A stretch of 15,291 nt of DNA from Pseudomonadota bacterium (GTDB lineage: Bacteria > Pseudomonadota > Gammaproteobacteria > Burkholderiales > Burkholderiaceae). The stretch covers positions 1 through 15,291 of the forward strand of contig JAEZQX010000110.1 in assembly GCA_023441105.1 (NCBI GenBank). Reading direction: 5' to 3'. Every line of letters begins with the position of its first letter. The first letter of the stretch is position 1. Positions 1,271 through 15,291 of this stretch are shown piece by piece. The notes beneath the pieces were generated by a model that did not search any database, was not told the origin of the DNA, and was given only the letters and a program-made list of their open reading frames with translations. The position numbers and the translations under genes were made by a program.

Positions 1271-1314
1271 TGCCCGTGCCGCGTCGCTCGTGTTTAATTG
1301 CGATTCCGTCGCGG

Positions 1315-1320
1315 ATTATA
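1315..1320 (-). promoter_or_regulatory. -10 box of the tetR-pcp promoter
   Basis: On the minus strand this reads TATAAT, a perfect sigma-70 -10 box, about 45 bp upstream of the repressor start codon. It touches the left arm of the operator. No good -35 box is present: the best hexamer is TTATAT, at a long 19-bp spacing. The promoter may therefore be weak. Confidence 0.55.
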
Positions 1321-1342
1321 CATACAGACGTGAATGTATATA
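1317..1342. promoter_or_regulatory. AcrR-type operator in the divergent promoter region
   Basis: Two palindromic readings overlap here. TATACAT (1317-1323) and ATGTATA (1334-1340) are perfect 7-bp inverted repeats. The 24 bases 1319-1342 also align without gaps to the 24-bp AcrR box of E. coli as I remember it. They match at both arms (TACATACA on the left, GTGAATGTAT on the right) and differ at three central bases and one base near the right end, giving 20 of 24 identical. The site spans the -35 region and spacer of the pump promoter and abuts the -10 of the repressor promoter. That position fits a repressor controlling both directions. Confidence 0.75.
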
Positions 1343-1346
1343 TAAT
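1317..1346 (+). promoter_or_regulatory. Sigma-70 promoter of the RND efflux operon
   Basis: A perfect TATAAT lies at 1341-1346, preceded by TATACA at 1317-1322 (4 of 6 matches to the -35 consensus) with an 18-bp spacer. Transcription would start near 1353, giving a leader of about 100 bases before the adaptor gene. The operator lies inside the promoter. Confidence 0.65.
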
Positions 1347-1452
1347 TGCGCGCCCGGCCCGGCACATCCATTGCTCCGCAGTGCGCTTTTCCGCTGCGCC
1401 GCGCCCCGTCACCACACTTAGCGCCCCGCACGCGACGCAGAAAGGTACTTCC

Positions 1453-2790
1453 ATGGCATTGCCTCCCGACATGTCCCTGCGCTCAAACCGCCTGCGCGCT
1501 GCAGCGGCCGGTTGGCTGCTGGTCCCGATCATCGGCCTGCTGGTCGGCTGCGGGCAGAAGCCTGAAGGACAGGCCGTGGCGCAGGGCCCGGCAGCACCGC
1601 CGCCGCCGGAAGTCGGGGTGGTCGTGATCAAGCCCGGTCCGGTGGGCCTGATGGTCGACCTGCCCGGCCGGCTCGAGGCCTCGCGGGTTTCGGAAGTGCG
1701 CGCCCGTGTCGCCGGCATTCTCGAGAAGCGGCTGTTCGAGGAAGGCAGCGACGTCCAGGCGGGTCAGCCGCTGTTCCAGATCGCCGCCGCTCCGTACGAG
1801 GCCGCCGTCGCCAGCGCCCGCGCCTCGGTCGCCCGGGCCCAGGCCAACCTCGCCCAGGCGTCGGCCCAGGTGCGTCGCTACAAGCCGCTGGTGGCCGCCA
1901 ATGCGGTGAGCCGCCAGGACTACGACAATGCGGTGGCCGCCGAGAAGCTGGGCGAAGCGGACGTCGCGGTCGCCAAGGCCAACCTGCAGACGTCGCAGAT
2001 CAATCTCGGCTATGCATCGGTCACGGCGCCGATCTCCGGCCGCATCGGCCGCGCCCTGGTGACCGAAGGCGCGCTGGTGGGCCAGGGCGAGGTGACCGAG
2101 CTGGCAGTGGTGCAGCAGATCGATCCGATGTATGTCAACTTCACCCAGTCGACGGCCGAAGTCCTGCGCCTGCGCCGGGCGTTCGAGGACGGTTCGCTGA
2201 AGCGCGCATCGGATCCGGATGGCGCCCTGGTGCATGTCGTTCTCGAGGATGGCACCGTCTACGACAAGCCGGGCAAGCTGCTGTTCACGGACCTCTCGGT
2301 GGACCCGACCTCCGGCCAGGTGACCTTGCGGGCGCAGATTCCCAATCAGCAGCACCTGCTCCTGCCGGGCATGTACGTGCGGGTACGCTTCGAGCAGGCG
2401 CAGGCGGCCCACGGCATCCTGCTGCCGCAGCAGGCGGTGACCCGCTCGGGCACCGGTGACACGGTGATGGTGGTCGCGCCCGACGGCAAGGTGAGTCCGC
2501 GCCACGTGCGGCTCGGCCCGGCGCAGGGCAACGACTGGGTCGTGTTCGAAGGGCTCAAGGAAGGCGAGCAGGTCATCGTCGACGGCTTCCAGAAGATGCG
2601 GCCGAATGCGCCGGTCAAGCCGGTGCCCTGGAAGAAGCCGGGCGGCAACGGCGGGGCCGTGGCGGGCAAGCCGGCCAACGGCGCGGGCAACGTAGCGGCC
2701 AACGGCACGGCCAACGCCAAGGATTCGGCCGCGGCCGGGAAGGCCGGCGACGGCGCGACCGCCACCGGCGCGGACGGCTCGCACAAGTGA
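1453..2790 (+). CDS. acrA: RND efflux periplasmic adaptor lipoprotein (AcrA/MexA type)
   Basis: A 445-residue membrane-fusion protein that links the inner-membrane pump to the outer-membrane channel. The N-terminus is a lipoprotein signal: a hydrophobic stretch at about residues 20-32 and the lipobox LVGC, with Cys33 as the likely lipidated residue. Then come the HlyD-family parts: a beta-barrel/lipoyl start (PGRLEASRVSEVRARVAGI), an alpha-hairpin rich in Ala and Gln near residues 110-175, the second lipoyl half (YASVTAPISGRIGRALV), and the barrel and membrane-proximal domains. The last 50 or so residues are a low-complexity Gly/Ala/Asn/Lys tail that looks disordered. The start at ATG 1453 is supported by GAAAGG about 8 bp upstream. 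The frame stays open further upstream, but that part overlaps the promoter and is not coding. Confidence 0.93.
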   Translation: MALPPDMSLRSNRLRAAAAGWLLVPIIGLLVGCGQKPEGQAVAQGPAAPPPPEVGVVVIKPGPVGLMVDLPGRLEASRVSEVRARVAGILEKRLFEEGSDVQAGQPLFQIAAAPYEAAVASARASVARAQANLAQASAQVRRYKPLVAANAVSRQDYDNAVAAEKLGEADVAVAKANLQTSQINLGYASVTAPISGRIGRALVTEGALVGQGEVTELAVVQQIDPMYVNFTQSTAEVLRLRRAFEDGSLKRASDPDGALVHVVLEDGTVYDKPGKLLFTDLSVDPTSGQVTLRAQIPNQQHLLLPGMYVRVRFEQAQAAHGILLPQQAVTRSGTGDTVMVVAPDGKVSPRHVRLGPAQGNDWVVFEGLKEGEQVIVDGFQKMRPNAPVKPVPWKKPGGNGGAVAGKPANGAGNVAANGTANAKDSAAAGKAGDGATATGADGSHK

Positions 2791-2819
2791 CTCCTGCGCG
2801 CTGATCCCGGATACCCCGC

Positions 2820-2835
2820 CCGGCCGCCCGGCCGG
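2820..2835 (+). other. Intercistronic hairpin between adaptor and pump genes
   Basis: CCGGCC (2820-2825) and GGCCGG (2830-2835) form a perfect 6-bp GC stem with a 4-base loop in the 71-bp gap between the two genes. There is no T tract after it, so it is unlikely to terminate transcription. It could influence mRNA processing or be chance in GC-rich DNA. Confidence 0.3.
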
Positions 2836-2861
2836 CAGCAAGAAAAGCAAAGGCTTCCTCC

Positions 2862-5800
2862 ATGGCCCAGTTCTTCATCAACCGCCCGATCTTCGCCTGG
2901 GTGATCGCCCTCTTCATGCTGGTGATGGGGGCGGTGTCGATCACGCAGTTGCCGATCTCGCAGTATCCGCAGGTGGCGCCGCCGGCGATCGTCATCAACG
3001 TCGTCTATCCCGGCGCTTCCGCGCAGACGCTGGAGGACGCCGTCCTCAGCGTCATCGAGCGCGAGATGAACGGCTCGCCGGGCATGATCTACATGGAATC
3101 GGTGGCGCAGGCCAACGGCACGGGGCAGATCACCCTTACCTTCGAGACCGGCACCAATTCCGACCTTGCGCAGGTGGATGTGCAGAACCGCCTCGGCCGG
3201 GCGACCCCCCGGCTGCCGCTGGCGGTTGTCCAGCAGGGCGTGCGCGTGGACAAGTCCCGGTCGAACTTCCTGCTCTTCACCATCCTTTCTTCCGACAATC
3301 CCGACATCGATCCGATCGCACTGGGCGACTTCGCCTCGCGCAACGTCCTGCCCGAGATCCAGCGGCTGCCGGGTGTCGGCCAGGCCCAGCTGTTCGGCTC
3401 TGAACGGGCGATGCGGGTCTGGATCGATCCGACCCGGCTGGTCGGCTTCAAGCTGTCCGTCAACGACGTGAACACCGCGGTCGCGGCCCAGAATGCCCAG
3501 GTCGCGTCCGGCACCCTCGGCGACCTGCCCAACGTGCCGGGGCAAACGATCTTCGCGACCGTCGTCGTCAAGGGGCAGCTGGCGACGGTGGAGGAGTTCG
3601 GCAACATCGTGCTGCGCGCCAACGTCGACGGCTCGACGGTGCGGCTGAAGGACGTGGCGCGCATCGAGCTCGGCGCACAGACCTACGCCACCTCCGCCCG
3701 GCTCAACGGCAACCCATCCACCGGCATCGGCGTGCAGCTCTCGCCGACCGGGAACGCGCTGGCGACCGCCGACCTGGTCCGCACCCGGATGCAGGAGCTG
3801 GCGCGCTTCTTCCCGCAAGGCGTGAACTGGGCAATCCCCTATGACAGCTCGCGCTTCGTGGAGATCTCCATCACGCAGGTGGTGGTGACCCTCCTGGAGG
3901 CGATCGTCCTCGTCTTCCTGGTGATGTACCTGTTCCTGCAGAAGTTCCGCTACACGATCATCCCGACGCTGGTCGTGCCGGTGGCGCTGATGGGCACCTT
4001 CGCGGTGCTGTTCGCGCTCGGCTTCTCGATCAACGTCCTGACCATGTTCGGCATGGTGCTGGTGATCGGCATCGTCGTGGACGATGCGATCGTGGTCGTG
4101 GAGAACGTCGAGCGCATCATGAGCGAGGAAGGCCTGCCGCCCTTGCAGGCCACCCGCAAGGCGATGGGGCAGATCTCGGGTGCCATCGTCGGCGTGACCG
4201 TGGTCCTGGTCTCGGTGTTCGTGCCGCTCGCCTTCTTCGGCGGCTCGGTCGGCAACATCTATCGCCAGTTCTCGGCGGTGATGGTCACCTCGATCCTGTT
4301 CTCGGCGTTCCTCGCCCTGTCGCTCACGCCGGCGCTGTGCGCGACGCTGCTCAAGCCGGTCGAGGCCGGCCACCATCATGCCAAGCGCGGCTTCTTCGGC
4401 TGGTTCAACCGTGCCTTCACCCGCACCGCCAAGGGCTACGAAGGCTTGCTGGCGCGGATCCTGCGGCGCGCGGCGCGCTACCTGGTGATCTACGTGGCCA
4501 TCATCGTGGCAGTCGGGGTGTTCTACCTGCGCCTGCCCACTTCCTTCCTGCCCCAGGAAGACCAGGGCAACATGATCGTCAACGTGCAACTGCCCGCCGG
4601 CGCTACCCAGAACCGGGCGCTCGAGGTGATGAAGCAGGTCGAGGACTACATCCTCAAGCAACCCGAAGTCCAGAGCATGGTCGCGGTGATGGGCTTCAGC
4701 TTCTCCGGCCAGGGCCAGAACGCCGGTCTCGCCTTCGTGACCCTCAAGGACTGGGACGAGCGGACGGCGCCCGGCAGCTCGGCACAGGCGCTGGCGGGCC
4801 GGGCATTCGTCGCGCTCTCCGGCATCCGCGACGCGTTCATCTTCCCGCTCAGTCCGCCGCCGATCCCGGAGCTCGGCACTGCCTCGGGGTTCACCTTTCG
4901 CCTGCAGGATCGCGGCGGCAACGGCCATGAAGCGCTGGTGGCGGCCCGCAACCAGCTGCTGGGGCTGGCGGCGCAGAGCAAGCTGCTGGCCGGCGTGCGA
5001 CCCGACGGCCTGGAGGATGCGCCGCAGCTGCAGCTCGAGATCGACCGCGACAAGGCCAATGCCCTCGGTGTCTCCTTCGAGGCGATCAATGGCGTGATCT
5101 CGACCGCCCTCGGCTCGCGCTACATCAACGACTTTCCGAATGCCGGCCGCCTGCAGCGGGTCCTGATCCAGGCCGATGCGCCGGCCCGGATGCAGCCCGA
5201 CGACCTGCTGCGACTGAACGCGGTGGGCGCCGCCGGCAACCTGGTGCCGCTGTCGGCGTTCGCGACGACGCGCTGGATCACCGGCCCGATGCAGACCATC
5301 CGCTACAACGGCTATCCGACGATGCGCATCTCCGGCGACGCCGCACCTGGCGGCAGCACCGGCGCCGCCATGGCGGAGATGGAGCGGCTGGCGGCGCAGC
5401 TGCCGCCCGGCTTCGCCTACGAGTGGACCGGCCAGTCGCGCGAGGAACGACTCGCCGGCGCCCAGGCCTCGATCCTGTTCGGGTTCGCCCTGCTGTCGGT
5501 GTTCCTGTGCCTGGCCGCGCTCTACGAGAGCTGGTCGATCCCGCTGTCGGTGATCCTGGTCGTGCCGCTGGGCGTCCTCGGCGTGGTGCTGGGCGTCACG
5601 CTCGGCAAGCAGGCCAACGACGTCTACTTCAACGTCGGCCTGATCACCATCATCGGCCTGTCGGCGAAGAACGCGGTGCTGATCATCGAATTCGCCAAGG
5701 ACCTGCATGCCCAGGGCAAGGGCCTGGTGCCGGCGGCGCTGGAAGCGGCGCACCTGCGGTTCCGCCCGATCATCATGACCTCGCTGGCCTTCACCTTCGG

Positions 5801-6074
5801 CGTGATGCCGCTGGCGCTGGCGACCGGCGCCGGATCCGCCGCACAGCGCGCCATCGGCATCGGCGTCGTCGGCGGCATGATCAGCGCCACGATCCTCGCG
5901 GTGATCTTCGTGCCGATCTTCTTCGTGGTCGTGCGCAGCATCTTCAAGGGCAGCGAGCGCCAGCGGCGGATGTACGCCCACGAGGATGAAGCCGGCGGTG
6001 CCGCCCCGGCCGCATCGCCGCAGTCTCCACCCTCGCCGCCGGCCGCGCCGGCCGGCCCCTCGGGAAGCCATTGA
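2862..6074 (+). CDS. acrB: RND multidrug efflux transporter, inner-membrane pump (AcrB/MexB type)
   Basis: A 1070-residue hydrophobe/amphiphile efflux (HAE-1) pump that uses the proton gradient to drive drug export from the periplasm and outer membrane leaflet. It begins with the family N-terminus MAQFFINRPIFAWVIALF, the first membrane helix. The proton-relay residues are present: Asp407 and Asp408 in VVDDAIVVVENVERI, at the same numbers as in E. coli AcrB, and a Lys at residue 936 in GLSAKNAVLIIEFAK, equivalent to AcrB Lys940. Two large periplasmic loops follow helices 1 and 7, and full length is conserved. A C-terminal Pro/Ala/Ser tail ends the protein. The ATG at 2862 has AAAGG 8 bp upstream. 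The stop codon overlaps the start of the next gene by one base, so translation is coupled. Confidence 0.96.
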   Translation: MAQFFINRPIFAWVIALFMLVMGAVSITQLPISQYPQVAPPAIVINVVYPGASAQTLEDAVLSVIEREMNGSPGMIYMESVAQANGTGQITLTFETGTNSDLAQVDVQNRLGRATPRLPLAVVQQGVRVDKSRSNFLLFTILSSDNPDIDPIALGDFASRNVLPEIQRLPGVGQAQLFGSERAMRVWIDPTRLVGFKLSVNDVNTAVAAQNAQVASGTLGDLPNVPGQTIFATVVVKGQLATVEEFGNIVLRANVDGSTVRLKDVARIELGAQTYATSARLNGNPSTGIGVQLSPTGNALATADLVRTRMQELARFFPQGVNWAIPYDSSRFVEISITQVVVTLLEAIVLVFLVMYLFLQKFRYTIIPTLVVPVALMGTFAVLFALGFSINVLTMFGMVLVIGIVVDDAIVVVENVERIMSEEGLPPLQATRKAMGQISGAIVGVTVVLVSVFVPLAFFGGSVGNIYRQFSAVMVTSILFSAFLALSLTPALCATLLKPVEAGHHHAKRGFFGWFNRAFTRTAKGYEGLLARILRRAARYLVIYVAIIVAVGVFYLRLPTSFLPQEDQGNMIVNVQLPAGATQNRALEVMKQVEDYILKQPEVQSMVAVMGFSFSGQGQNAGLAFVTLKDWDERTAPGSSAQALAGRAFVALSGIRDAFIFPLSPPPIPELGTASGFTFRLQDRGGNGHEALVAARNQLLGLAAQSKLLAGVRPDGLEDAPQLQLEIDRDKANALGVSFEAINGVISTALGSRYINDFPNAGRLQRVLIQADAPARMQPDDLLRLNAVGAAGNLVPLSAFATTRWITGPMQTIRYNGYPTMRISGDAAPGGSTGAAMAEMERLAAQLPPGFAYEWTGQSREERLAGAQASILFGFALLSVFLCLAALYESWSIPLSVILVVPLGVLGVVLGVTLGKQANDVYFNVGLITIIGLSAKNAVLIIEFAKDLHAQGKGLVPAALEAAHLRFRPIIMTSLAFTFGVMPLALATGAGSAAQRAIGIGVVGGMISATILAVIFVPIFFVVVRSIFKGSERQRRMYAHEDEAGGAAPAASPQSPPSPPAAPAGPSGSH

Positions 6075-7507
6075 TGTCGCCAGAACGAAGCGCCCTCCCC
6101 CTTCGCCGTCGCGCGCCTGCCAAACGCCTGCCGCGGCTCGGCCTGTTGTCGGCCGCCCTGCTGCTCGCCGGCTGCGCCTCGATGGCGCCAACCTACGAGC
6201 GCCCCGCCGCGCCGGTGGACGCGACTTTCCCGGGGATCGATGCCGCGGCCTCGCCGGCGCAAGGCGCGGCGGCCGCGGATATCTCGTGGCATGCGTTCTT
6301 TTCGGATCCGCGCCTCAAGCAGCTGATCGGCATCGCCCTCGAGAACAACCGCGACTTGCGGGTTGCCGGTCTCGCTATCGAGCAGGCGCGCGCGCAGTAC
6401 CGAATCCAGCGCGCCGACGAGTTGCCCACCGTCAACGCCATCGCGCAGGGGGTCCGGCAGCCTGGCCCGACCGGGGCGATGACGAGCGTCTACACCGCCG
6501 GGCTCGGCATCGCCTCCTTCGAGTTCGATTTCTTCGGCCGCATCAGGAGCCTCAGCGACGCAGCACTGGCTCAATACCTGGCGACCGAACAGGCGCAGCG
6601 GACGGCGCAGATCTCGCTGATATCCGCCGTCGCCGGCACTTACCTGAACTTGCTTTCCGACGATGAGCTGCTGGAGGTGACACGCGGTACGCTGCGCAGC
6701 CGCGAGGAATCGCTCAAGCTCACCCAGTTGAAGTTCAAGAATGGCGCCGCGTCGGAGCTCGATTTCCGGCAGGCGGAGTCGCTGGTCGAGGGCGCGCGCG
6801 TGACCCTGGCGCAGGTGAGCCGCAGGCGGGCGCTCGACCAGAACGCCTTGGTGCTGCTTCTCGGCCAGCCGATGCCGAAGGATCTGCCGCCGGCCCAGTC
6901 GATCCTGAAGCAGCAGCTGCTGCCCGAGTTGCCGGTCGGCCTGCCGTCCGAGGTACTGACGCGGCGCCCCGACATCCTGCAGGCGGAGCAGCTGTTGATC
7001 GCCGCCAATGCCAACATCGGCGCAGCCCGAGCGGCCTTCTATCCGCGCATCGGCCTGACGGCCACCGCCGGCATCGCCAGCAACGAGCTTTCCAGGCTCT
7101 TCAACAATGGGGAGTTCGCCTGGTCGTTGGCGCCATCGGCGCTGCTGCCGATCTTCGACCGTGGCCGCAACAAGGCGGCGCTGAAGTCGACCGAGGCGAG
7201 TCGCGACATCGCGGTGGCCCAATACGAACAGTCGATCCAGGCTGCATTCCGCGAAGTGGCCGACACGCTCGCCGCCCGCCAGACGCTGATCGACGAGGTG
7301 CGCGCCCAGCGCGCGCAGGTCGATGCCGAGGCCGCGCGCCTGCGGCTTGCCGACCTGCGCTACCGCAGCGGGGCTGCCAGCTATCTCGACGTGCTGGATG
7401 CGCAACGCTCGCTGTTCCAGGCGCAGCAGGCCGTGGTGCTGGTCCAGACGGCGCAGGTCCAGAACCTGGTCACGCTCTACAAGGTGCTCGGCGGCGGCTG
7501 GAAGTAG
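6074..7507 (+). CDS. oprM: Outer-membrane efflux channel lipoprotein (OprM/TolC-type, NodT family)
   Basis: A 477-residue outer-membrane factor that completes the tripartite pump. It has a lipoprotein signal peptide with lipobox LAGC (Cys34) followed by ASMAPTYERP, the usual start of NodT/OprM proteins. Two outer-membrane efflux repeats follow: one around residues 80-270 (with ALENNRDLRVAGLAIEQARA and FEFDFFGRIRSLSDAA) and one around 285-475 (with LTRRPDILQAEQLLIAANANIGAARAAFYP, split here as a family motif, and YRSGAASYLDVLDAQR). The ATG at 6074 shares its A with the TGA of the pump gene. A TTG three bases upstream is possible but less likely. It lies in the same operon as the adaptor and pump, with no internal promoter seen. 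Confidence 0.93.
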   Translation: MSPERSALPLRRRAPAKRLPRLGLLSAALLLAGCASMAPTYERPAAPVDATFPGIDAAASPAQGAAAADISWHAFFSDPRLKQLIGIALENNRDLRVAGLAIEQARAQYRIQRADELPTVNAIAQGVRQPGPTGAMTSVYTAGLGIASFEFDFFGRIRSLSDAALAQYLATEQAQRTAQISLISAVAGTYLNLLSDDELLEVTRGTLRSREESLKLTQLKFKNGAASELDFRQAESLVEGARVTLAQVSRRRALDQNALVLLLGQPMPKDLPPAQSILKQQLLPELPVGLPSEVLTRRPDILQAEQLLIAANANIGAARAAFYPRIGLTATAGIASNELSRLFNNGEFAWSLAPSALLPIFDRGRNKAALKSTEASRDIAVAQYEQSIQAAFREVADTLAARQTLIDEVRAQRAQVDAEAARLRLADLRYRSGAASYLDVLDAQRSLFQAQQAVVLVQTAQVQNLVTLYKVLGGGWK

Positions 7508-7537
7508 CGCCAACGCGCGGCCGGCGAAGTCGCTCGC

Positions 7538-7553
7538 CGGCGGTCGACCGCCG
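7538..7553 (+). terminator. GC-rich palindrome after the efflux operon, possible terminator
   Basis: CGGCGGTCGACCGCCG is a perfect 16-bp palindrome 30 bp after the channel gene's stop. It can fold as a 6-bp stem with a TCGA loop. No U-tract follows, so intrinsic termination is doubtful. Placement at the operon end is the main argument. Confidence 0.35.
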
Positions 7554-7594
7554 CAAGAGTTGTAACAGGATTCGGGCACATCGCTTGCGGGGCG

Positions 7595-8500
7595 ATGGCA
7601 TCGACCGGTCATCCGGCGCTCGAATCCATCGCCATGCTCCAGCCAGCCCTCTCGCGGGGCCGGGAGATGCATCACCGCGACGTTTGCGACCCTTTCTCCC
7701 GCCACCCCGCCCGCCCTGCTTCCCCCACCGCCACGCGTCGCGGCGGCGTCCAGACAAGACGCGCCCCTGCCACCGCCGATCGGCCGGCACCTGACGACAC
7801 TCCCCAGCCACGGCGTGGCAGATGGGGGCGGTTTGCCGCCGGCCTCTGCCGGCGCCTTGCCAACCGGCTGGCGCTCGCCACCGGCCGCCACGTCGGCCGG
7901 ACGCTGGCCTTGTGCCTCGCGGTCGTCAGCACCTCGGTGGCTGCCGCCCCCCCCGACCGGGGGGAGCCGACGCAGCGGAAGCAGCAGCGCGAAGTCGCCA
8001 CCCGCACTGCCCAGGTCATCGAGGAGGCGCGGGTGTCGCATATCGCCACCCGCTATCGCCGGCCGCCGGAGCAGGTGCGACGGGTGGTCCGCACGACCGA
8101 GCGGGTGGCGTCACGGCACGGCCTGCCACCCGAGTTGCTGCTGGCGGTCATGGAGACCGAGTCGAGCTTCAATCCGGCGGCGCGCTCGAAGTACGGCGCG
8201 CGGGGCCTGATGCAGGTGGTACCGCGCTTCCATCCCAAGGTCATCAAGGCGGTGGGCGGTGTGCACCGGCTCGATGAACCGGAAGCCAACATCGAGGCGG
8301 GCGCCGCCATCCTCGCCGCCTACGTCGAGGCGAGCGGCAACCTCGGCTCGGCGCTTGTCCGCTACTCCGGCGGCGCGCGCAGCTATGCCAAGCGGATCGC
8401 GCAGCGCCAGCGCGAGTTCGAGACCCTCGCGATCTATGCCACGCGACAGCTCGACAACATGCGGGTCAGCGAACTGCGCAACCCTGACGGCCGGGGCTGA
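7595..8500 (+). CDS. Lytic transglycosylase, SLT domain (start uncertain)
   Basis: A periplasmic murein-cleaving enzyme of the soluble lytic transglycosylase family 1 fold. The SLT domain lies in the C-terminal half: LLLAVMETESSFNPAARS, with the catalytic Glu encoded at 8159-8161, then YGARGLMQVVP, then an ANIEAGAAILAAY helix and the closing ALVRYSGGARSYAKRI motif. A hydrophobic signal-like stretch (LALCLAVVSTSVAAA) is encoded near 7904-7948. The frame runs back to an ATG at 7595, giving 301 residues and an unusually long, Arg/Pro-rich region of about 100 residues before that stretch. Other ATG codons in frame are at 7634 and 7667, and a TTG at 7910 lies inside the hydrophobic stretch. None has a convincing ribosome binding site. 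The domain is certain, the N-terminus is not. It is probably monocistronic. Confidence 0.82.
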   Translation: MASTGHPALESIAMLQPALSRGREMHHRDVCDPFSRHPARPASPTATRRGGVQTRRAPATADRPAPDDTPQPRRGRWGRFAAGLCRRLANRLALATGRHVGRTLALCLAVVSTSVAAAPPDRGEPTQRKQQREVATRTAQVIEEARVSHIATRYRRPPEQVRRVVRTTERVASRHGLPPELLLAVMETESSFNPAARSKYGARGLMQVVPRFHPKVIKAVGGVHRLDEPEANIEAGAAILAAYVEASGNLGSALVRYSGGARSYAKRIAQRQREFETLAIYATRQLDNMRVSELRNPDGRG

Positions 8501-8508
8501 CCGGGCCC

Positions 8509-8634
8509 GGGAGCGCGCGCGACCTCGGCGGCGCATCGCCGCAGGTCCGCCGCCGTGTACGGCGGCAGCGTCCGCTGCAGCAGGCCAGCGCGGTTGACCA
8601 GGATTCCGACAGGGCCGGGTTCCGCCGCGATCAC
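8509..8634 (-). pseudogene. Possible short-chain dehydrogenase fragment
   Basis: The minus-strand reading from a GTG at 8634 contains GILVNRAGLLQRTLPPYTAADL, here noted as resembling the LVNNAG motif region of short-chain dehydrogenases. Neither the N-terminal nucleotide-binding motif nor the catalytic Tyr-Lys pair is present, and the frame then runs antisense into the transglycosylase gene. If real, it is only a scrap of about 40 residues. It could also be chance. Confidence 0.25.
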
Positions 8635-8800
8635 TTGAAACCGAGCCCGCGCGCGATCAGGTTGCGCTGGATCTCGCTGGTACCTTCGGCGATGACATAC
8701 GCCAGCGTGTCGCGGTGGATGCGCCCAACGGGATACTCGCGCATGATGCCGGCGCCGCCGTGGATGCGGATCGCAAGCGCGACATTGACAGCCGCCGGGC
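8631..8800 (-). pseudogene. 3' remnant of an acyl-CoA dehydrogenase gene
   Basis: The minus strand encodes about 50 residues that look like the extreme C-terminus of an acyl-CoA dehydrogenase. They read AIRIHGGAGIMREYPVGRI, then HRDTLAYVIAEGTSEIQRN, then LIARGLGFK and a TGA stop at 8633-8631. The HGGxGxxxEYPxxRxxRD and EGTSEIQR motifs line the CoA/FAD site in this family. The recognisable match fades upstream near 8785-8800, and no in-frame start or the other 330 or so residues are present. The left end of the remaining gene is intact to its stop codon, so the loss was of the 5' part, probably by recombination when the neighbouring operon arrived or moved. The -35 box of the next operon lies at the broken edge. 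Confidence 0.7.
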
Positions 8801-8812
8801 TTCTCTCATAGT
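8785..8812 (+). promoter_or_regulatory. Sigma-70 promoter of the hydrolase/Bug operon
   Basis: A perfect TTGACA at 8785-8790, a 16-bp spacer, and CATAGT at 8807-8812 (4 of 6 to the -10 consensus). Transcription would begin near 8819, about 68 bp upstream of the deacetylase-like gene. The inferred start point falls at the first half-site of the operator described next. Confidence 0.55.
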
Positions 8813-8813
8813 C

Positions 8814-8849
8814 TTCAAGTCATCCGGCAAATATTCAAGTGACTTGAAT
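8814..8849. promoter_or_regulatory. Palindromic operator with an extra half-site upstream of the catabolic operon
   Basis: ATTCAAGTGACTTGAAT (8833-8849) is a perfect inverted repeat with 8-bp arms around one central G. A further TTCAAGT copy lies at 8814-8820, exactly 20 bp (about two helix turns) before the matching copy at 8834. The cluster begins just after the predicted -10 box and covers the transcription start, a typical place for a repressor. The XRE-cupin regulator at the end of the operon is the only candidate regulator in the operon; a MarR or GntR protein encoded elsewhere is equally compatible with such a palindrome. Confidence 0.65.
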
Positions 8850-8886
8850 GCCACCAGCGGGCTGCCGACAGCCCCGGAGGAGACCC

Positions 8887-9762
8887 ATGCCAATGCTTCC
8901 CAGCCAGCGCGCGCCGTTCAGCGCGATCGTCGACCGACCGGTGCAGCGCCTGCCCGGCGATGCCCGCATCGTCGTATGGAACGTCGTCAACCTCGAGTTC
9001 TGGGACATCGCCAACCCGATGGCCCGGCAGGTCCTGCCGGCGCCGACCGGCCAGCCGCTCCTGCCCGACGTGCCCAACTGGAGCTGGCACGAATACGGCA
9101 TGCGCGTCGGCTTCTGGCGCTTCCACGAGATGTACGAGCGGCTCGGCATCCGGCCGACCCTGTCGATCAACGCCCGCGTGTGCGAGGAGTACGCCCGGGT
9201 TGCCCAGGCCGCGCACGACAGCGGCTGGGAGTTCATGGGTCACAGCTACCAGCAGGGTCCGATCCACAAGGAAGCGGACCAGCCGTCGATGATCCGCCGA
9301 TCGCTGGAGGTCATCGAGGCCTTCACCGGCAAGCGGCCGGTCGGCTGGCTCGGCCCCGGCCTGACCCAGACGCTCGAGACGCCCGATCTGCTGGCGGCAG
9401 CCGGCGTCAGGTACATCGGCGACTGGGTCTACGACGACGTTCCGACGGAAATCGAGACGACTCACGGCCGGCTGGTGACCATCCCCTACTCCATGGAGAC
9501 GAACGACATCACCGTGATGATCGTGCAGCACCACGAGGCGGCCTACTGGACGCGCAAGTGCATCGACACGTTCGACCGCCTGTACGAGGAAGGCGGCAGC
9601 CGCCCACGCGTGATGACCATCGCCATCCACCCCTACATCTCGGGGCAGCCGTTCCGGATCAAGTACCTCGAGGAGGTCTACCGCCACATGTCACGCTTCC
9701 CGGGCGTGCTCCATTGGCAGGGAAACGAGATCATGGACTGGCACCTGTCCGCCGCCGCCTGA
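8887..9762 (+). CDS. NodB-fold polysaccharide deacetylase family protein (cyclic imide hydrolase/allantoinase-like)
   Basis: A 291-residue protein with the look of the carbohydrate-esterase-4-like group that includes PuuE-type allantoinase, Helicobacter PgdA and a Burkholderia cyclic imide hydrolase. These use a metal and a TIM-like barrel to hydrolyse amides. Supporting stretches are RPTLSINARVCEEYA (residues 89-103), GWEFMGHSYQQGPIHKE (113-129, with His119 and His127 as possible metal ligands), GWLGPGLTQTLETPDLLAAAGV followed by YIGDWVYDDVP, noted in two parts, and IAIHPYISGQP near the end. The classic TFDDG motif of sugar deacetylases is replaced by VVNLEFWD. No signal peptide is seen, so a cytosolic small-molecule role is more likely than polymer deacetylation. 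The ATG at 8887 follows GGAGGAG. It is the first gene of the operon. Confidence 0.8.
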   Translation: MPMLPSQRAPFSAIVDRPVQRLPGDARIVVWNVVNLEFWDIANPMARQVLPAPTGQPLLPDVPNWSWHEYGMRVGFWRFHEMYERLGIRPTLSINARVCEEYARVAQAAHDSGWEFMGHSYQQGPIHKEADQPSMIRRSLEVIEAFTGKRPVGWLGPGLTQTLETPDLLAAAGVRYIGDWVYDDVPTEIETTHGRLVTIPYSMETNDITVMIVQHHEAAYWTRKCIDTFDRLYEEGGSRPRVMTIAIHPYISGQPFRIKYLEEVYRHMSRFPGVLHWQGNEIMDWHLSAAA

Positions 9763-9777
9763 TCGTCGTGCCATTCT

Positions 9778-9799
9778 CCCGCCGGATCTCCCGGTCGGG
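9778..9799 (+). other. Hairpin between deacetylase-like and receptor genes
   Basis: CCCGCCGG and CCGGTCGGG pair as an 8-bp stem with one bulged T and a 5-base loop, 15 bp after the first gene's stop. No T-run follows. In an 83-bp intercistronic gap before a solute-receptor gene it could stabilise mRNA ends, but this is inference. Confidence 0.3.
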
Positions 9800-9845
9800 T
9801 TCGCAGTCCATCGCCTGTTCGCCTTACTCTCGAAGGAGCCTCGCC

Positions 9846-10823
9846 ATGAAGAAATGGTTTCGTTCGCTGATCGGTGTCGTCTCGGCGGCCAGCGCATTCG
9901 CGCTTCCATCTTTCGCCCAGGCTCAGGCCTGGCCGTCGCAGCCGGTTCGCATCATCGTGCCCTTCCAGGCCGGCGACCTGGCGGATGTCATCGCCAGGAT
10001 GATCGGACAGAAGGTGGGGGAGGACCTCGGCCAGCCGGTTGTCGTGGAGAATCGCCCCGGCGCCTCCGGACTCGTCGGCCTGCAGACGGCCTTGCAGGCT
10101 CCAGCCGACGGCCACACCCTGGTCATGGGCCAGATGGGCGGCATGGCGGTGGCCCCGAACATCAATCCGCAGCCGTTCGACGTCAGGACGGAGTTCAAGG
10201 GCGTGGCGGGGATGTATTCCAACTACATGGTGCTGGTGGCCGCCAACGACTTCGCGCCCCGTACGCTGGCCGAGATCATCGCGTTCGCCCGGGAGAACCC
10301 GGGCAAGCTCACCATGGCTTCCAACGGCCAGGGCGGCTTTCCGCACCTCGCCTTCGAACAGATCCGGCGCGAGGCCGGCGGCTTCGAGTACACGCACGTT
10401 CCGTACAAGGGCTCCTCGCAGATCCCCGCCGATGTCATCAGCGGCCGGGTCAACCTGACGATCCTCGGCTACTCCACGCTGATGCCGCACGTCGAGGCGG
10501 GCCGGATGAAGGCGATCGCCATCACCGGCGCCGAACGCAACACCCTGTCACCGGCGCTGCCGACGGTGGGCGAGACGGTCAAGGGTTACTCGGCCCTCGG
10601 CTGGTTCGGACTGTTCGCCCGCAGCGGCACGCCGACGGACGTCGTCCAGAAGGTCAATGCATCGGTCAACAAGGCATTGGCGATGCCCGACGTCATCGAG
10701 CGCGCCAAGACGATGGGACTCGACCTGATGGCGGGCACGCCCAGCGCCTTCGACCAGACCTGGAAGAACGACCACCAGAAATGGGGCCAGTTGATCCGCG
10801 ACCTGAAGCTCGACAAGCCCTGA
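9846..10823 (+). CDS. Bug/TctC-family periplasmic solute-binding receptor
   Basis: A 325-residue tripartite tricarboxylate transporter receptor. It has a Sec signal peptide (MKKWFRS then a hydrophobic core, cleavage expected after AQAQA near residue 28) and the mature start WPSQPVRIIVPFQAG. Other family landmarks are VVVENRPGASGLVGLQTALQ, the repeated GMxxNYMVLVA region, HVPYKGSSQIPADVISG, and LPTVGE. Bug proteins bind small carboxylates, amides or pyridine acids. Most Bug genes, as here, stand without the TctA/TctB membrane genes. The usual PFPAGGxxD loop near the ligand carboxylate site is PFQAGDLAD here, which may alter specificity. The ATG at 9846 follows GAAGGAG. As the second gene of the operon it presumably delivers or senses the substrate of the neighbouring enzymes. 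Confidence 0.92.
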   Translation: MKKWFRSLIGVVSAASAFALPSFAQAQAWPSQPVRIIVPFQAGDLADVIARMIGQKVGEDLGQPVVVENRPGASGLVGLQTALQAPADGHTLVMGQMGGMAVAPNINPQPFDVRTEFKGVAGMYSNYMVLVAANDFAPRTLAEIIAFARENPGKLTMASNGQGGFPHLAFEQIRREAGGFEYTHVPYKGSSQIPADVISGRVNLTILGYSTLMPHVEAGRMKAIAITGAERNTLSPALPTVGETVKGYSALGWFGLFARSGTPTDVVQKVNASVNKALAMPDVIERAKTMGLDLMAGTPSAFDQTWKNDHQKWGQLIRDLKLDKP

Positions 10824-10897
10824 CGACGCCAAGCGGCATCGCCACCGAAGCCCCTGGCCGCGCTCCGCTCGATCAGCTCATGAACAAGGAAGGAAAC

Positions 10898-12088
10898 GTG
10901 TCCGAAACCGATCATTCACCCCGCTACGAACCGTTTGGCTGGCATCACTGGCCCCATGATTTCTGGATGTCGTACCAGTTCCGCCGAGGCCTGGGCGAAA
11001 CCCAGGAAGGCGGCGGCGCGGTCAGCGAGGTCTTCCAGGCAGCCAGCAGGATCGTCGCCGGAGACTTCGACAGCTGGCACGAGCAGTGGCTGCACATCGC
11101 CCGGCGCAACGACGACCGCGGGGATGAAGCCATCGGCCGCGGCCATGTGCGCACGGCGATCAACTGCTGGCTGCGAGCCGCCAACTACTACCGAGAAGCG
11201 GAGTTCTGGCTTGCGGCCGACGACCCCCGGCGGCTGCCGACCTTCGACCGCTGCGAAGCGGCGTCGCGCAAGGCGTTCACCCGCTTCACGCCGGCCGCCG
11301 AGATCGTCGAGATCCCCTACGAGGATGGCAAGACGCTGCCGGCCTACTTCATCCGGTCGGCGAACGGCGGCGCGCGCCAGCCGGTGCTGATCTCCTTCGG
11401 CGGCCTCGACTCGTTCAAGGACGAGCTCTGGTTCATGACCGGGCGTGGCGCGGTCCAGCGCGGCCTGTCGGTACTGCTGGTGGACGGACCGGGTCAAGGC
11501 GGCGCCCTGCGCCGGCACGGCCTGGTCACGCGGCATGACTACGAGGTCCCGGTCGGTCGCTGCATCGACTGGCTGGCCGCGCGCCCGGACGTCGACCCCA
11601 GCCGCATTGCGGTCAGCGGTTCCAGCCTTGGCGGCTACTACGCCGCTCGGGCGGGTGCGATGGAACCCCGCCTGGCCGCCTGCATCTCGCATGGCGCCAT
11701 CTGGGACATCCACGAGCGCTGGAAGGTCCGCGACGACGATCACGGGCTGGCCGGACACATCAAGTGGGTGTTCGGCGCCCGGAGCATGGCCGAGGCCACC
11801 GAGATCGCGCGGCCCTTCAAGCTCGAAGGCGTGCTCGAGCACATGCGCTGTCCCTACCTCATCATCCACGGCGGCCACGACGTGCTGGGCGTCGAATCGG
11901 TCCGCAAGGTGCACGACTATGCGGTGAAGCACGGCGTGAAGGCGACCTTGCGGCTGACCTCCGAGGAGGAGACCGGCGCGGAGCATTGCCAGCACGACAA
12001 TCCCACCATCGGCCAGGAGCTGATGCTCGACTGGCTGTGCGACGTCTTCCGGATCGACCAGCGGCAGGTGGCGATGCTGCCCGGCTGA
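10898..12088 (+). CDS. Alpha/beta hydrolase, DHPON hydrolase/FrsA-like (first paralogue)
   Basis: A 396-residue serine-type hydrolase with a long helical N-terminal domain (about residues 1-130) and an alpha/beta-hydrolase core. The nucleophile elbow GSSLGG gives Ser243, the acid is probably Asp328 in IIHGGHDVLG, and the base His363 in AEHCQHDN. VDGPGQGG (195-202) is the conserved strand-turn before the elbow. This layout matches the group with 2,6-dihydroxypseudooxynicotine hydrolase, a C-C bond hydrolase of nicotine breakdown, and FrsA/DUF1100 proteins. I chose the GTG at 10898, because AGGAAGGA lies just upstream at a good distance; an in-frame ATG at 10880 lacks such a site. No signal peptide, so cytosolic. 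It shares its layout with the next gene. Confidence 0.87.
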   Translation: MSETDHSPRYEPFGWHHWPHDFWMSYQFRRGLGETQEGGGAVSEVFQAASRIVAGDFDSWHEQWLHIARRNDDRGDEAIGRGHVRTAINCWLRAANYYREAEFWLAADDPRRLPTFDRCEAASRKAFTRFTPAAEIVEIPYEDGKTLPAYFIRSANGGARQPVLISFGGLDSFKDELWFMTGRGAVQRGLSVLLVDGPGQGGALRRHGLVTRHDYEVPVGRCIDWLAARPDVDPSRIAVSGSSLGGYYAARAGAMEPRLAACISHGAIWDIHERWKVRDDDHGLAGHIKWVFGARSMAEATEIARPFKLEGVLEHMRCPYLIIHGGHDVLGVESVRKVHDYAVKHGVKATLRLTSEEETGAEHCQHDNPTIGQELMLDWLCDVFRIDQRQVAMLPG

Positions 12089-12185
12089 TCGCGTCCTGCC
12101 GTCCACCACCCTTCCGGGCGGGCGGCGGCCGCGATCCATCGCGCCGTCCCCGCCTCGACTGTCATTCGATTGGAGCGCTTTTGCG

Positions 12186-13328
12186 ATGAGTCACTGGTTC
12201 GAGTACTTCCCCGGCAACCACATGTGGTCCCAAGGCATGATGTTCGGCATCGAGATGTCCGCCTGGGGGGCGGCTGCGCTGGGGGAGATCGACCAGATCG
12301 GCCAGCGCCTGCGGGGCCATGAAGGCGACAACGAGCGCTGGTGGCGCGAGTGGACGGACATGGCCCGGCGCATCGAATCCTTCGGCGATGCCGAGGAAGC
12401 GCGCGGCCACCGGCTCACCGCCGGCTCGTACTACCTGCGCGCCGGCATCTACTACTTCTGCGGCGAACGTTTCATCCCACCCTCCGACCGCAAGCGACAG
12501 ACCTATCGCGATTGCCTGCGCTGCTTCGGCAAGGGTGTCGAGCGGCGCTACCCCGACATCTCCCGCGTCGAGGTGCCCTACGAAGGAACGACCCTTCCGG
12601 CATGGTTCGTGAAGGCCGACGGCGACGGTCCGGCGCCGGCGGTGGTCATGTTCGACGGGCTCGACAACGCCAAGGAAATGAGCGTGCTGTTCGGCGGGGT
12701 GGAGATCGCGCGGCGCGGCATCCACGTGCTGGCCATCGACGGTCCCGGACAGGGCGAGGCACTGCGACTGCAGGAGATCGTGAGCCGCCATGACTACGAG
12801 GTTCCGGCCGGTGCCGCCTACGACTACCTGGCCACGCGCCCGGACATCGATGCGCATCGCATTGCGGTGATGGGCTTTTCCATGGGCGGGTACTACGCGC
12901 CGCGCGCCGCTGCCATGGATTCCCGCTTCGCGGCCTGCGTCGCCTGGGGCGGTCACTTCGACTATCACGAATCCTGGGTTCGCCGGCGCAAGATCATGGA
13001 AAGCGGCGGCACCAAGGTATCGGCGCCGGGCTTCCAGTTGCCCTGGGTGCTCGGCATGCCGGACATGGATGCCTGCATGAAGAAGCTGGAGAAGTACCGG
13101 CTCACCGGCATCGCGGAGAGGATCAAGTGCCCGTTCTTCTGCATCCATGGCGAGAACGACAACATCGTCCAGGTCGAATTCGCCCAGCGGCTTCATGACG
13201 CCGTCGGTTCGAGCAACAAGACGCTGAAGATCCTGACCGCCTTCGACGGTGGCAGCGAGCATTGCCAGGAAGACAACCGGCAGGTCGGCGCCAACATCGT
13301 CGCGGACTGGCTGATGGACAACCTCTGA
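12186..13328 (+). CDS. Alpha/beta hydrolase, DHPON hydrolase/FrsA-like (second paralogue)
   Basis: A 380-residue paralogue of the preceding gene. The same features recur: helical N-terminal domain, VPYEGTTLPAWFVKA at the start of the core, AIDGPGQGEALR (183-194), RHDYEVP, nucleophile elbow GFSMGGYYAPRA with Ser232, Asp325 in CIHGENDNIV, and His359 in SEHCQEDN. All three triad positions are retained, so it should be active. Around the elbow the two proteins match closely, elsewhere they have diverged, especially in the N-terminal domain and the region after the nucleophile, so they probably act on different substrates or successive intermediates, or form a mixed complex. The ATG at 12186 has GGAG about 10 bp upstream. 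The 97-bp gap before it shows nothing convincing. Confidence 0.87.
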   Translation: MSHWFEYFPGNHMWSQGMMFGIEMSAWGAAALGEIDQIGQRLRGHEGDNERWWREWTDMARRIESFGDAEEARGHRLTAGSYYLRAGIYYFCGERFIPPSDRKRQTYRDCLRCFGKGVERRYPDISRVEVPYEGTTLPAWFVKADGDGPAPAVVMFDGLDNAKEMSVLFGGVEIARRGIHVLAIDGPGQGEALRLQEIVSRHDYEVPAGAAYDYLATRPDIDAHRIAVMGFSMGGYYAPRAAAMDSRFAACVAWGGHFDYHESWVRRRKIMESGGTKVSAPGFQLPWVLGMPDMDACMKKLEKYRLTGIAERIKCPFFCIHGENDNIVQVEFAQRLHDAVGSSNKTLKILTAFDGGSEHCQEDNRQVGANIVADWLMDNL

Positions 13329-13339
13329 GCCGTGTCGCA

Positions 13340-13909
13340 GTGCAGGCCACGAGTTCCTTGCTCGGATCGAGCATCCGCAGCACCCGGATCCTGAAGGGAC
13401 TCAGGCTGCGGGAGCTGGCGCAGCTCGCCGCCTGCTCCGAGAGCATGCTGTCGAAGCTCGAGAACGGTCACGCCAATCCGTCCCTCGCCATCCTTCATCG
13501 CATCGCCGACGGACTGCAGGTCTCGCTGGCGACGCTGCTGTCGCCGGTGGATCACACCCGGATCGTCGCGCGCGCCGGCCAGCGCGCGGCGGTGCGCATC
13601 GACGCCAACGGCTCGCGGGCTGAACGGTTGATTCCGAGCGGACAGGGGCACCTGCTGGAAGGGCATCTGCATGTCCTTGCGCCCGGCGCCGGCAGCCAGG
13701 GCGCGCTGGCCCATGAGGGCGAGGAAGTCGGCTATGTCATCAGCGGCCGGCTGCGCCTGACGGTGGGCAGCGAGATCTTCGAGCTCAGGGCCGGCGATTC
13801 GTTCGCGTTCCGCTCGGAAATCGAGCACCGCTACGTCAATCCCGGAAGCACCCGGACGCGAGTGATCTGGGTCAGCACGCCGAGCCGGATCTCCCCCCGC
13901 CCTGCCTAG
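13340..13909 (+). CDS. XRE-family transcriptional regulator with C-terminal cupin domain
   Basis: A 189-residue regulator. The helix-turn-helix lies at about residues 18-68 (LKGLRLRELAQLAACSESML then SKLENGHANPSLAILHRIA), a classic XRE domain. The C-terminal half is a cupin: HEGEEVGYVISGRLRLTVG and LRAGDSFAFRSEIEHRYVN near residues 130-170, expected to bind a small ligand. XRE-cupin proteins usually control amine, amino-acid or small-acid catabolism of their own operon. The start is taken as GTG 13340, 11 bp after the preceding stop. The frame is open further upstream inside the hydrolase gene (from a TTG at 13262), but that would overlap it by 67 bases and add a basic tail foreign to the family. 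No clear ribosome binding site; coupling is likely. Confidence 0.85.
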   Translation: MQATSSLLGSSIRSTRILKGLRLRELAQLAACSESMLSKLENGHANPSLAILHRIADGLQVSLATLLSPVDHTRIVARAGQRAAVRIDANGSRAERLIPSGQGHLLEGHLHVLAPGAGSQGALAHEGEEVGYVISGRLRLTVGSEIFELRAGDSFAFRSEIEHRYVNPGSTRTRVIWVSTPSRISPRPA

Positions 13910-13927
13910 GCGTGGAGGCACCGGCGG
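13897..13927. terminator. Imperfect hairpin between convergent genes
   Basis: CCGCC-c-TGCCT at 13897-13907 can pair with AGGCA-cc-GGCGG at 13916-13927 around an 8-base loop. It sits over the regulator's stop codon and just past the end of arginase, where a two-way terminator would be useful. No T-runs flank it, so the call is weak. Confidence 0.3.
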
Positions 13928-13936
13928 AGATCCCGG

Positions 13937-14878
13937 CTAACGCTGGCGGCGCATCAGCGTGCTCTTGCCGAACAGGCTTTCCACCAGGTCCACCACCAGC
14001 AGCGCGGTCTGGTTGCGCACGTCGAGCGCGGGGTTGATCTCGACCACGTCGAGCGACCCCAGCCGCCCGCTGTCGGCGATCATCTCCATGCACAGCTGCG
14101 CTTCCCGGTAAGTGGGCCCGCCCTGCACGCCGGTGCCCACGCCGGGCGCCACCGCCGGGTCGAGGAAGTCGGCATCGAGGCTGACATGAAGATGGGTGTC
14201 CTCGTCCATCTGCAGCAGCACCTGCTCCATGACGTGGCGCATGCCCATCTCGTCGATGTAGCGCATGTCGAAGACCTCCAGGCCCAGCTCGTGCACCAGG
14301 TGCTTCTCGCGGTCGTCGACGCTGCGGATGCCGATCTGCACCATCTGCTGTGCCTGCAGGGCCGGCGTCTGCCCCGACAGGTTGGTGAGCGCCGGCGGAC
14401 CGAGCCCGCAAAGGCAGGCGACGGGCATGCCGTGGATGTTGCCACTCGGGGTGATTTCGGCGGTGTTGCAATCGGCGTGGGCATCGAGCCAGATCACCCG
14501 CAGCCGCTTGCCCGACTCGCGGCAGTAGCGGGCGACCGCGCTGATCGAGCCGATGCCCAGGCTGTGGTCGCCGCCCATCAGCAGCGGCATCCGCTCCTCG
14601 CCGAGCGACTCGTAGACCGCGTCGTGCACCAGGCGATTCCACAGGATGCATTGCTGGAGATGGCGGAAGCCGGCATCGGGGTCGCTCCAGGGACTGGGCG
14701 GACCGAGCAGGTTGCCGCTGTCGTATACCTGCAGGCCATGGCGCTCCAGCGCGTTGCCGATGCCCGCCACCCGCAGCGCTTCCGGACCCATGCTGGCACC
14801 ACGCACGCTGGCGCCGACATCGGTCGGCGCGCCGATCAACTCAATGCGCCGGGCGGAGCCCGCAGGAACGGCCGTCAC
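13937..14878 (-). CDS. rocF: Arginase (ureohydrolase family)
   Basis: A 313-residue cytosolic di-manganese enzyme that hydrolyses arginine to ornithine and urea. Metal-binding motifs are all present: GGDHS at residues 102-106, DAHAD at 132-136, and SLDADFLDP at 233-241. ITPSGNIHGMPVA (142-154) is the substrate loop typical of true arginases rather than agmatinases. The start is GTG at 14878; GGAAG lies about 10-15 bp upstream and the next in-frame Met is residue 30, already within the conserved core start. The gene begins 22 bp after the ornithine cyclodeaminase stop and runs in the same direction, so the two form an arginine catabolic operon whose promoter must lie beyond the right edge. Confidence 0.95.
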   Translation of the reverse strand: MTAVPAGSARRIELIGAPTDVGASVRGASMGPEALRVAGIGNALERHGLQVYDSGNLLGPPSPWSDPDAGFRHLQQCILWNRLVHDAVYESLGEERMPLLMGGDHSLGIGSISAVARYCRESGKRLRVIWLDAHADCNTAEITPSGNIHGMPVACLCGLGPPALTNLSGQTPALQAQQMVQIGIRSVDDREKHLVHELGLEVFDMRYIDEMGMRHVMEQVLLQMDEDTHLHVSLDADFLDPAVAPGVGTGVQGGPTYREAQLCMEMIADSGRLGSLDVVEINPALDVRNQTALLVVDLVESLFGKSTLMRRQR

Positions 14879-14900
14879 CGGCGCCGGGCTTCCGATGCCA

Positions 14901-15291
14901 TCAGCCGACGGGGACGACGTGGCTGGCTTCGGGACACGTCGATCCCGCGCGCGTGGTGGCTGCCGGCAATGCAGGCCGCCAGGCTCCGGGCACGATCAGC
15001 GGAAGAGCAATGCCATCGCCGCGCACCGGCGTCGGCGCCTCGCCGCCGACCAGCGCGAACAGGTCCTTCGGATCGCGCAGTGCCGGGATCAGGTCGAGCG
15101 ATGCCAACAGGCCCAGGCCGGCAGCCTGCTCGCGCATGAAATGCAGCGCCGAGAAGTCCTCGAGCGCGAAGCCGACCGAGTCGAAGAGGGTCACTTCGTG
15201 GGCATCGCATCGCCCGGCACTGAGGCCGTCCAGTACCCGCCAGAGCTCGGTGACCGGAAAATCCGTCGTCATCTGCTGGATCTCTCCCTCG
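14901..15291 (-). CDS. Ornithine cyclodeaminase, C-terminal part (N-terminus beyond window)
   Basis: The last 130 or so residues of an NAD-dependent enzyme that turns ornithine into proline and ammonia. The frame is open at the right window edge (EGEIQQMTTDFPVTELWRVL) and continues with VTLFDSVGFALEDFSALHFM and SLDLIPALRDPKDLFALV, which are hallmark C-terminal motifs of the ornithine cyclodeaminase/mu-crystallin family. An ATG at 15272 exists but is internal to the conserved domain, not a start. After DLFALV, where family members usually end, the frame continues for about 50 residues with no recognised motif to a TGA at 14903-14901. Its partner arginase lies directly downstream. Confidence 0.9.
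   Translation of the reverse strand, partial: EGEIQQMTTDFPVTELWRVLDGLSAGRCDAHEVTLFDSVGFALEDFSALHFMREQAAGLGLLASLDLIPALRDPKDLFALVGGEAPTPVRGDGIALPLIVPGAWRPALPAATTRAGSTCPEASHVVPVG

Follow-up and report, generated by a model that had tools for sequence, protein, structure and literature searches.

What would an operon do with a deacetylase-family enzyme (PDA), a Bug/TctC periplasmic receptor, two alpha/beta hydrolases (ABH1 and ABH2) and an XRE-cupin regulator? The question is raised by positions 8785-13909 of contig JAEZQX010000110.1 (assembly GCA_023441105.1, Burkholderiaceae), a stretch of 15,291 nt analysed on its forward strand, the full length of which we call the window. The sequence-only reading of this DNA had seen five same-strand genes and guessed at the degradation of an N-heterocyclic or imide compound. 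Open reading frame calls confirm the layout, with five intact frames, all on the + strand and separated, in order, by 83, 74, 97 and 11 bp. Our analysis predicts a dedicated uptake-and-catabolism operon for a small N-containing ring (cyclic imide, ureide, hydroxylated pyridine or pyrimidine), a reading to which we give an even chance; the ring opened would most likely be a cyclic imide or ureide. All protein families named here are already known, and what appears to be new is the catabolic gene combination together with a newly recognised candidate operator. The features of the locus are:

8785-8812, + strand: sigma70-like promoter (TTGACA, 16-bp spacer, CATAGT)
8833-8849, no strand: candidate operator between the promoter and the first gene, the perfect 17-base palindrome ATTCAAGTGACTTGAAT
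8887-9762, + strand: PDA, 291 residues, predicted PuuE-like cyclic amide/imide hydrolase with the polysaccharide-deacetylase fold
9846-10823, + strand: Bug/TctC periplasmic receptor, 325 residues (PF03401, 202.8 bits)
10898-12088, + strand: ABH1, alpha/beta hydrolase of 396 residues with a GTG start, related to 2,6-dihydroxypseudooxynicotine (DHPON) hydrolase
12186-13328, + strand: ABH2, alpha/beta hydrolase of 380 residues, related to DHPON hydrolase
~13340-13909, + strand: XRE-cupin regulator of ~189 residues; the proposed GTG start is uncertain, and the frame opens at TTG 13262

PDA scores 22.1 bits against the polysaccharide deacetylase family PF01522, below the gathering cut-off of 23.1 bits, and 102 bits against the allantoinase model PuuE (TIGR03212), below the equivalog cut-off of 424.6 bits. 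Its best sequence match in the PDB is to PuuE and its relatives (1z7a, E 9.3e-23). An AlphaFold2 model (mean predicted local distance difference test score, pLDDT, of 81) has 1z7a, 3s6o and 3cl6 as its top Foldseek matches and shows the PuuE-type fold and motifs, with template modelling (TM) scores of 0.80-0.82. In the profile alignment, the EYG-R-G-WR and ETND-type motifs and the key histidines are found as in PuuE (3cl6, 1z7a), from which PDA differs by an identity of only ~25% and by its far lower score. PuuE is metal-independent, and the metal motif of NodB/CE4 enzymes is H-x3-H. In 20 of 20 aligned sequences, the second histidine of this motif is replaced by glutamine, which fits a metal-free cyclic-amide hydrolase and not a deacetylase. 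By sequence, profile and modelled fold, PDA is thus a predicted PuuE-like cyclic amide or imide hydrolase. The PF01522 score and the missing H-x3-H motif rule out a CE4 polysaccharide deacetylase; an allantoinase proper is ruled out by the PuuE score.

The two hydrolases are 38% identical to each other, and for both the best PDB match is DHPON hydrolase of nicotine breakdown (2jbw, E 2.2e-30 and 2.4e-31), which removes an acyl side chain from a ring by C-C hydrolysis. Their motifs GSSLG/GFSMG, HGxxD and EHC correspond to the Ser/Asp/His triad of this enzyme, and the triad of ABH1 is also present in the profile alignment. The similarity is remote (E ~1e-30), and the other genes of the DHPON hydrolase pathway were not seen in the window. 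C-C cleavage by ABH1 and ABH2 is plausible from these relationships. With 43 and 45 bits against an equivalog cut-off of 477 bits, neither scores as an FrsA esterase.

The Bug receptor matches TctC over its full length, as expected of this receptor family, and no TctA/TctB-type permease is encoded among the five genes. The regulator combines an HTH_3 with a Cupin_2 domain and belongs to the XRE-cupin family; its score of 66.8 bits, with 211 bits needed for the equivalog, speaks against PuuR. Profile and PDB matches hence support the families named from the sequence alone: an imide-hydrolase-like enzyme, a Bug receptor, two DHPON-hydrolase-like enzymes and an XRE-cupin regulator.

The promoter is the sole sigma70-like one in positions 7500-15291, which is weak evidence by itself because 0.4 such sites are expected by chance in these 7.8 kb. 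The palindrome at 8833-8849, near which a single half-site TTCAAGT lies at 8814-8820, had no match at up to three mismatches in 200 shuffles of the window. To place it among relatives, we used loci gathered with the ABH1 alignment, of which the best 80 of 193 were kept, many ended by contig edges. Their 1.09 Mb hold 24 near-copies (up to two mismatches, central base free; motif derived from the window itself), compared with 0-1 sites in each of ten first-order Markov simulations of the locus sequence; the 24 sites are not independent because their carriers include close relatives, among them five Limnohabitans-type loci. Twenty-two of these sites precede a BUG, ABH1-type or PDA-type gene by no more than 160 bp, measured to the start of the protein match, and the other two flank an XRE gene. 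At up to two mismatches, a site is present in 15 of the 19 loci with an XRE gene and in 7 of the 61 without one nearby. The four XRE loci lacking a site at this threshold are L058, L061, L065 and L071, and L061 and L071 have one at three mismatches. Five of the seven site-carrying loci without a nearby XRE gene come from Limnohabitans-type genomes, each of which has one XRE relative (56-57% identity) elsewhere (5/5); in the Limnohabitans-type genome G009, the relative sits at the opposite end of the same operon as the palindrome.

A survey of 25 selected genomes for the operator core (up to one mismatch) gave 22 sites in 18 genomes, and 7 sites in 6 genomes for a reversed control pattern; these figures are descriptive, because 17 of the 25 were picked for an XRE gene or a site at their loci. 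Sixteen of the 17 have the core at the operon. Among the other eight, two have a core site (L155, L156), neither at such an operon, and second core sites are present in G1048, G1054 and G1057. A text search of the open-access literature matched the core in a single paper, on Enterococcus. We propose that the palindrome is a candidate operator of the XRE-cupin regulator. The single operator that the sequence-only reading had assigned to the gene group is supported by its recurrence upstream of related operons.

How far the gene set itself is shared was read from the same 80 loci, with counts resting on translated searches because some mapped reading frames may be wrong. A Bug gene lies directly upstream of ABH1 in 24 loci and ABH2 directly downstream in 6; within 6 kb of ABH1, 26 loci have a PDA-type gene, 19 an XRE-cupin gene and 11 both. 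All five families occur as a permuted cluster in 2/80 loci, and four of the five stand in the window's order in 1/80. The arrangement is XRE-BUG-ABH1-ABH2-PDA in Ramlibacter (L004 and L005), XRE-BUG-ABH1-ABH2 in Pigmentiphaga (L006) and PDA-BUG-ABH1-ABH2 plus an IclR gene in Zwartia (L007). These four loci share BUG-ABH1-ABH2 in the window's order, with XRE in L004-L006 and a PDA-type gene in L004, L005 and L007, but XRE stands first or is replaced by IclR (L007), and the PDA-type genes are only 49-55% identical to that of the window. ABH and PDA-type genes are kept, but the uptake system differs from locus to locus (Bug, Liv ABC, TRAP, NMT1-type). The operator and much of the gene set are conserved.

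A tree of 54 PDA-type proteins groups the window PDA with the Limnohabitans/Alcaligenaceae clade (support 99/96). In the hydrolase tree, ABH1 belongs to a set of 14 rows (95/93) that includes Ramlibacter, Rubrivivax and Pigmentiphaga, and ABH2 to one of 11 rows (98/99), with weaker support at the closest forks. On these trees, the operon may be a mosaic of two related types.

Three further observations concern the ABH1 loci. An S15-type peptidase/acylase gene (L011 2394-4184 and relatives) lies within 6 kb of ABH1 in 19/80 loci, which are possibly a second variant of the pathway. A family of ~425 residues (L001 5660-6937 and relatives) is found within 6 kb of ABH1-type genes in 13/80 loci, and Pfam gives no match for the L001 member at E 0.001. 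One contig filed under Thermoflexus (Chloroflexota; L035) has an ABH1 nearly identical to betaproteobacterial ones, probably a binning error.

The neighbourhood of PDA orthologues is the second source of evidence on the substrate. Close orthologues (at least 67% identity; genome draws scored at E 1e-130, top candidates per genome only) are sparse, with 9/268, 1/399 and 6/399 genomes in three family or order draws. Two more, G009 and G011, were added solely from genomes with a known ABH1 and bring the total to 18; G001, G003, G012 and G083 among the 18 also carry ABH1 loci of the collected set. In 14 of the 18, and in 12 of the 16 draw-derived genomes, the orthologue sits with ABH1-type (12), isochorismatase-type (13) and/or closely related Liv-type transporter genes. 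The retrieved stretch of 8 of these 14 module genomes also has a xanthine-dehydrogenase-type (molybdenum-hydroxylase) 2Fe-2S gene. Neighbours of the close orthologues include an isochorismatase-type hydrolase, amidases, an Amidohydro_2 (ACMSD/decarboxylase-family) enzyme and a molybdenum hydroxylase.

The module is fullest in Limnohabitans sp. 2KL-51 (L154), where operator, ABH, isochorismatase, HpaI-type aldolase, OsmC, PDA, FAH-type hydrolase, a second PDA and a Liv transporter are followed by an amidase, a 3-hydroxyisobutyrate-dehydrogenase-type enzyme, 2Fe-2S and molybdenum subunits, Amidohydro_2, a second amidase and, at the far end, XRE-cupin. It resembles the window in its PDA orthologue (76%), ABH1-type enzyme (65%), operator and terminal XRE-cupin (56%), but has the isochorismatase, HpaI, OsmC, FAH, second PDA, Liv, two amidases, molybdenum hydroxylase and Amidohydro_2 as extra genes, and neither Bug nor ABH2 was detected in it. 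Its Amidohydro_2 enzyme has a relative in L008 whose closest matches are ACMSD-type decarboxylases (E 1e-58). In Pusillimonas sp. T2 (L108), a 57% PDA relative with a Liv transporter lies close to an enamidase (2vun, E 4.7e-116); in a known nicotinate pathway, this enzyme opens the ring (PMC9304392). The isochorismatase, amidase, Amidohydro_2 and molybdenum-hydroxylase neighbours and this enamidase speak for the earlier guess of an N-heterocycle or imide pathway.

A ring opening comparable to that proposed for PDA is described in the same paper for the Aspergillus nidulans enzyme HxnM: during the breakdown of nicotinate, it cleaves a piperidine-dione, a six-membered imide, at the C-N bond, and it shares 64% identity with an imidase homologue from Pseudomonas putida (PMC9304392). 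HxnM and the imidase of Pseudomonas putida YZ-26 are described there as related to deacetylase-fold imidases, a likeness to PDA by description only. HxnM differs in being placed nearest HpPgdA (3qbu) in that text, whereas the window PDA matches 3qbu more distantly than PuuE.

For the operon as a whole, we infer regulator-operator binding, the direction of control, the transport partner, the order of steps and the substrate as follows. The XRE-cupin protein would bind the palindrome just downstream of the predicted promoter and keep the operon off; its cupin pocket would act as a sensor for the substrate or an intermediate, which would release repression. Bug would capture the compound for an unlinked permease encoded elsewhere. 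ABH1 and/or ABH2 may then hydrolyse the C-C bond that joins an acyl side chain to the ring, like DHPON hydrolase, and PDA would open the ring hydrolytically at a C-N bond. 2,6-Dihydroxypyridine has a glutaconimide tautomer. A bolder version, which we consider unlikely, is an undescribed multi-lineage ring-cleavage route in which a DHPON-hydrolase-like enzyme frees 2,6-dihydroxypyridine (or similar), a metal-free PuuE-like imidase opens the ring instead of an oxygenase, the XRE-cupin operator is conserved from Burkholderiales to Hyphomicrobiales, and the uptake system is exchanged.

Several results weigh against a dedicated pathway for an N-containing ring. The exact five-gene order, whose conservation the sequence-only reading had proposed to check, is found in 0/80 ABH1 loci, so that the families, the operator and the pathway guess of that reading are supported and conservation of the exact gene order is not. 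No PDA-type gene lies within 6 kb of ABH1 in 54/80 loci, many ended by contig edges, and four of the 18 PDA orthologues (G900, G1031, G808, G728) are without the module. PuuE and DHPON hydrolase are only remote relatives of the window enzymes. The exact operator core occurs in 3 of 399 other Burkholderiales genomes and its reversed control in 2; because these unselected genomes are at chance level, the operator signal lies in the sites' location at these operons and not in their genome-wide number. Finally, no hydroxylase, amidase or isochorismatase gene is present in the window. Since the window is without the hydroxylase and amidases of its relatives, either these are encoded elsewhere in the host genome or the substrate is already an imide or dione.

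An operon for an ordinary ester, amide or acyl compound, with the hydrolases acting as esterases and no N-heterocycle involved, appears rather unlikely. It would agree with Pfam, which puts both hydrolases in broad esterase/peptidase families (FrsA-like, Peptidase_S9), and with the many ABH1 homologues that accompany Bug and an S15-type gene and no PDA-type gene (S15-type in 19/80 and PDA-type in 26/80 loci within 6 kb), but not with the link of the PDA orthologue clade to isochorismatase-type hydrolase, amidases and molybdenum hydroxylase. A ureide or pyrimidine ring (allantoin-like, barbiturate-like, hydantoin) in place of a pyridine-derived imide seems distinctly unlikely. The closest characterised relative of PDA is an allantoinase, the linked isochorismatases weakly resemble biuret hydrolase and RutB, one linked amidase is similar to biuret hydrolase, and uracil-5-carboxylate decarboxylase (E 1e-30) comes after ACMSD among the matches of the L008 Amidohydro_2 enzyme; yet PDA is far off the PuuE equivalog, and it is not evident what DHPON-hydrolase-like enzymes would do in ureide breakdown. 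Membership in a described pathway, e.g. the pAO1-type nicotine route or a described nicotinate route, is very improbable, for although DHPON hydrolase belongs to nicotine breakdown and the L108 enamidase lies near a PDA relative, no other recognised nicotine or nicotinate gene is among the scanned window genes and no publication joining these families was found in the open-access literature. In agreement with the sequence-only reading, which knew of no pathway with this set, neither the combination nor the regulator-operator pair turned up in the open-access literature, subscription journals being mostly outside the search.

In one of the three exact-core genomes mentioned above (L151), the core stands just before genes for a Liv-type receptor, a transporter, an amidase-like protein and an M20 peptidase; the cluster ends with an XRE-cupin relative (40%) and is possibly a sister regulon for another substrate. 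In the remaining two, none of these enzyme genes adjoins the core.

Around the operon in the window, a scan of 7500-15291 gave no terminator-like site, so that the 3' end is set only by an arginase gene (TIGR01229, above cut-off) and the C-terminal part of an ornithine cyclodeaminase gene (13937-15272, - strand), which converge on the operon and, being on the opposite strand, are not members of it. Upstream, a 52-codon acyl-CoA dehydrogenase C-terminal stub (8631-8789, - strand; PF00441, E 1.7e-14, profile positions 103-149/150) stops where the operon promoter starts, which suggests a rearrangement or insertion scar. A lytic transglycosylase (SLT) gene (7595-8500) separates the operon from efflux genes at 590-7507, where a TetR gene adjoins an RND set (membrane-fusion, pump and outer-membrane proteins, these three named by eye). 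A pyroglutamyl-peptidase-type gene (PF01470; 1-579, - strand) runs off the window end.

Related gene sets, often with the same operator, occur in other soil and freshwater bacteria, and the closest relatives place these operons in the breakdown of N-containing rings, among which are pollutants and plant alkaloids. Where such operons have genes labelled polysaccharide deacetylase, these would be better read as ring-opening hydrolases. The 17-base palindrome and its proposed regulator would define a testable regulon and serve as markers for one family of catabolic operons in beta- and alphaproteobacteria.

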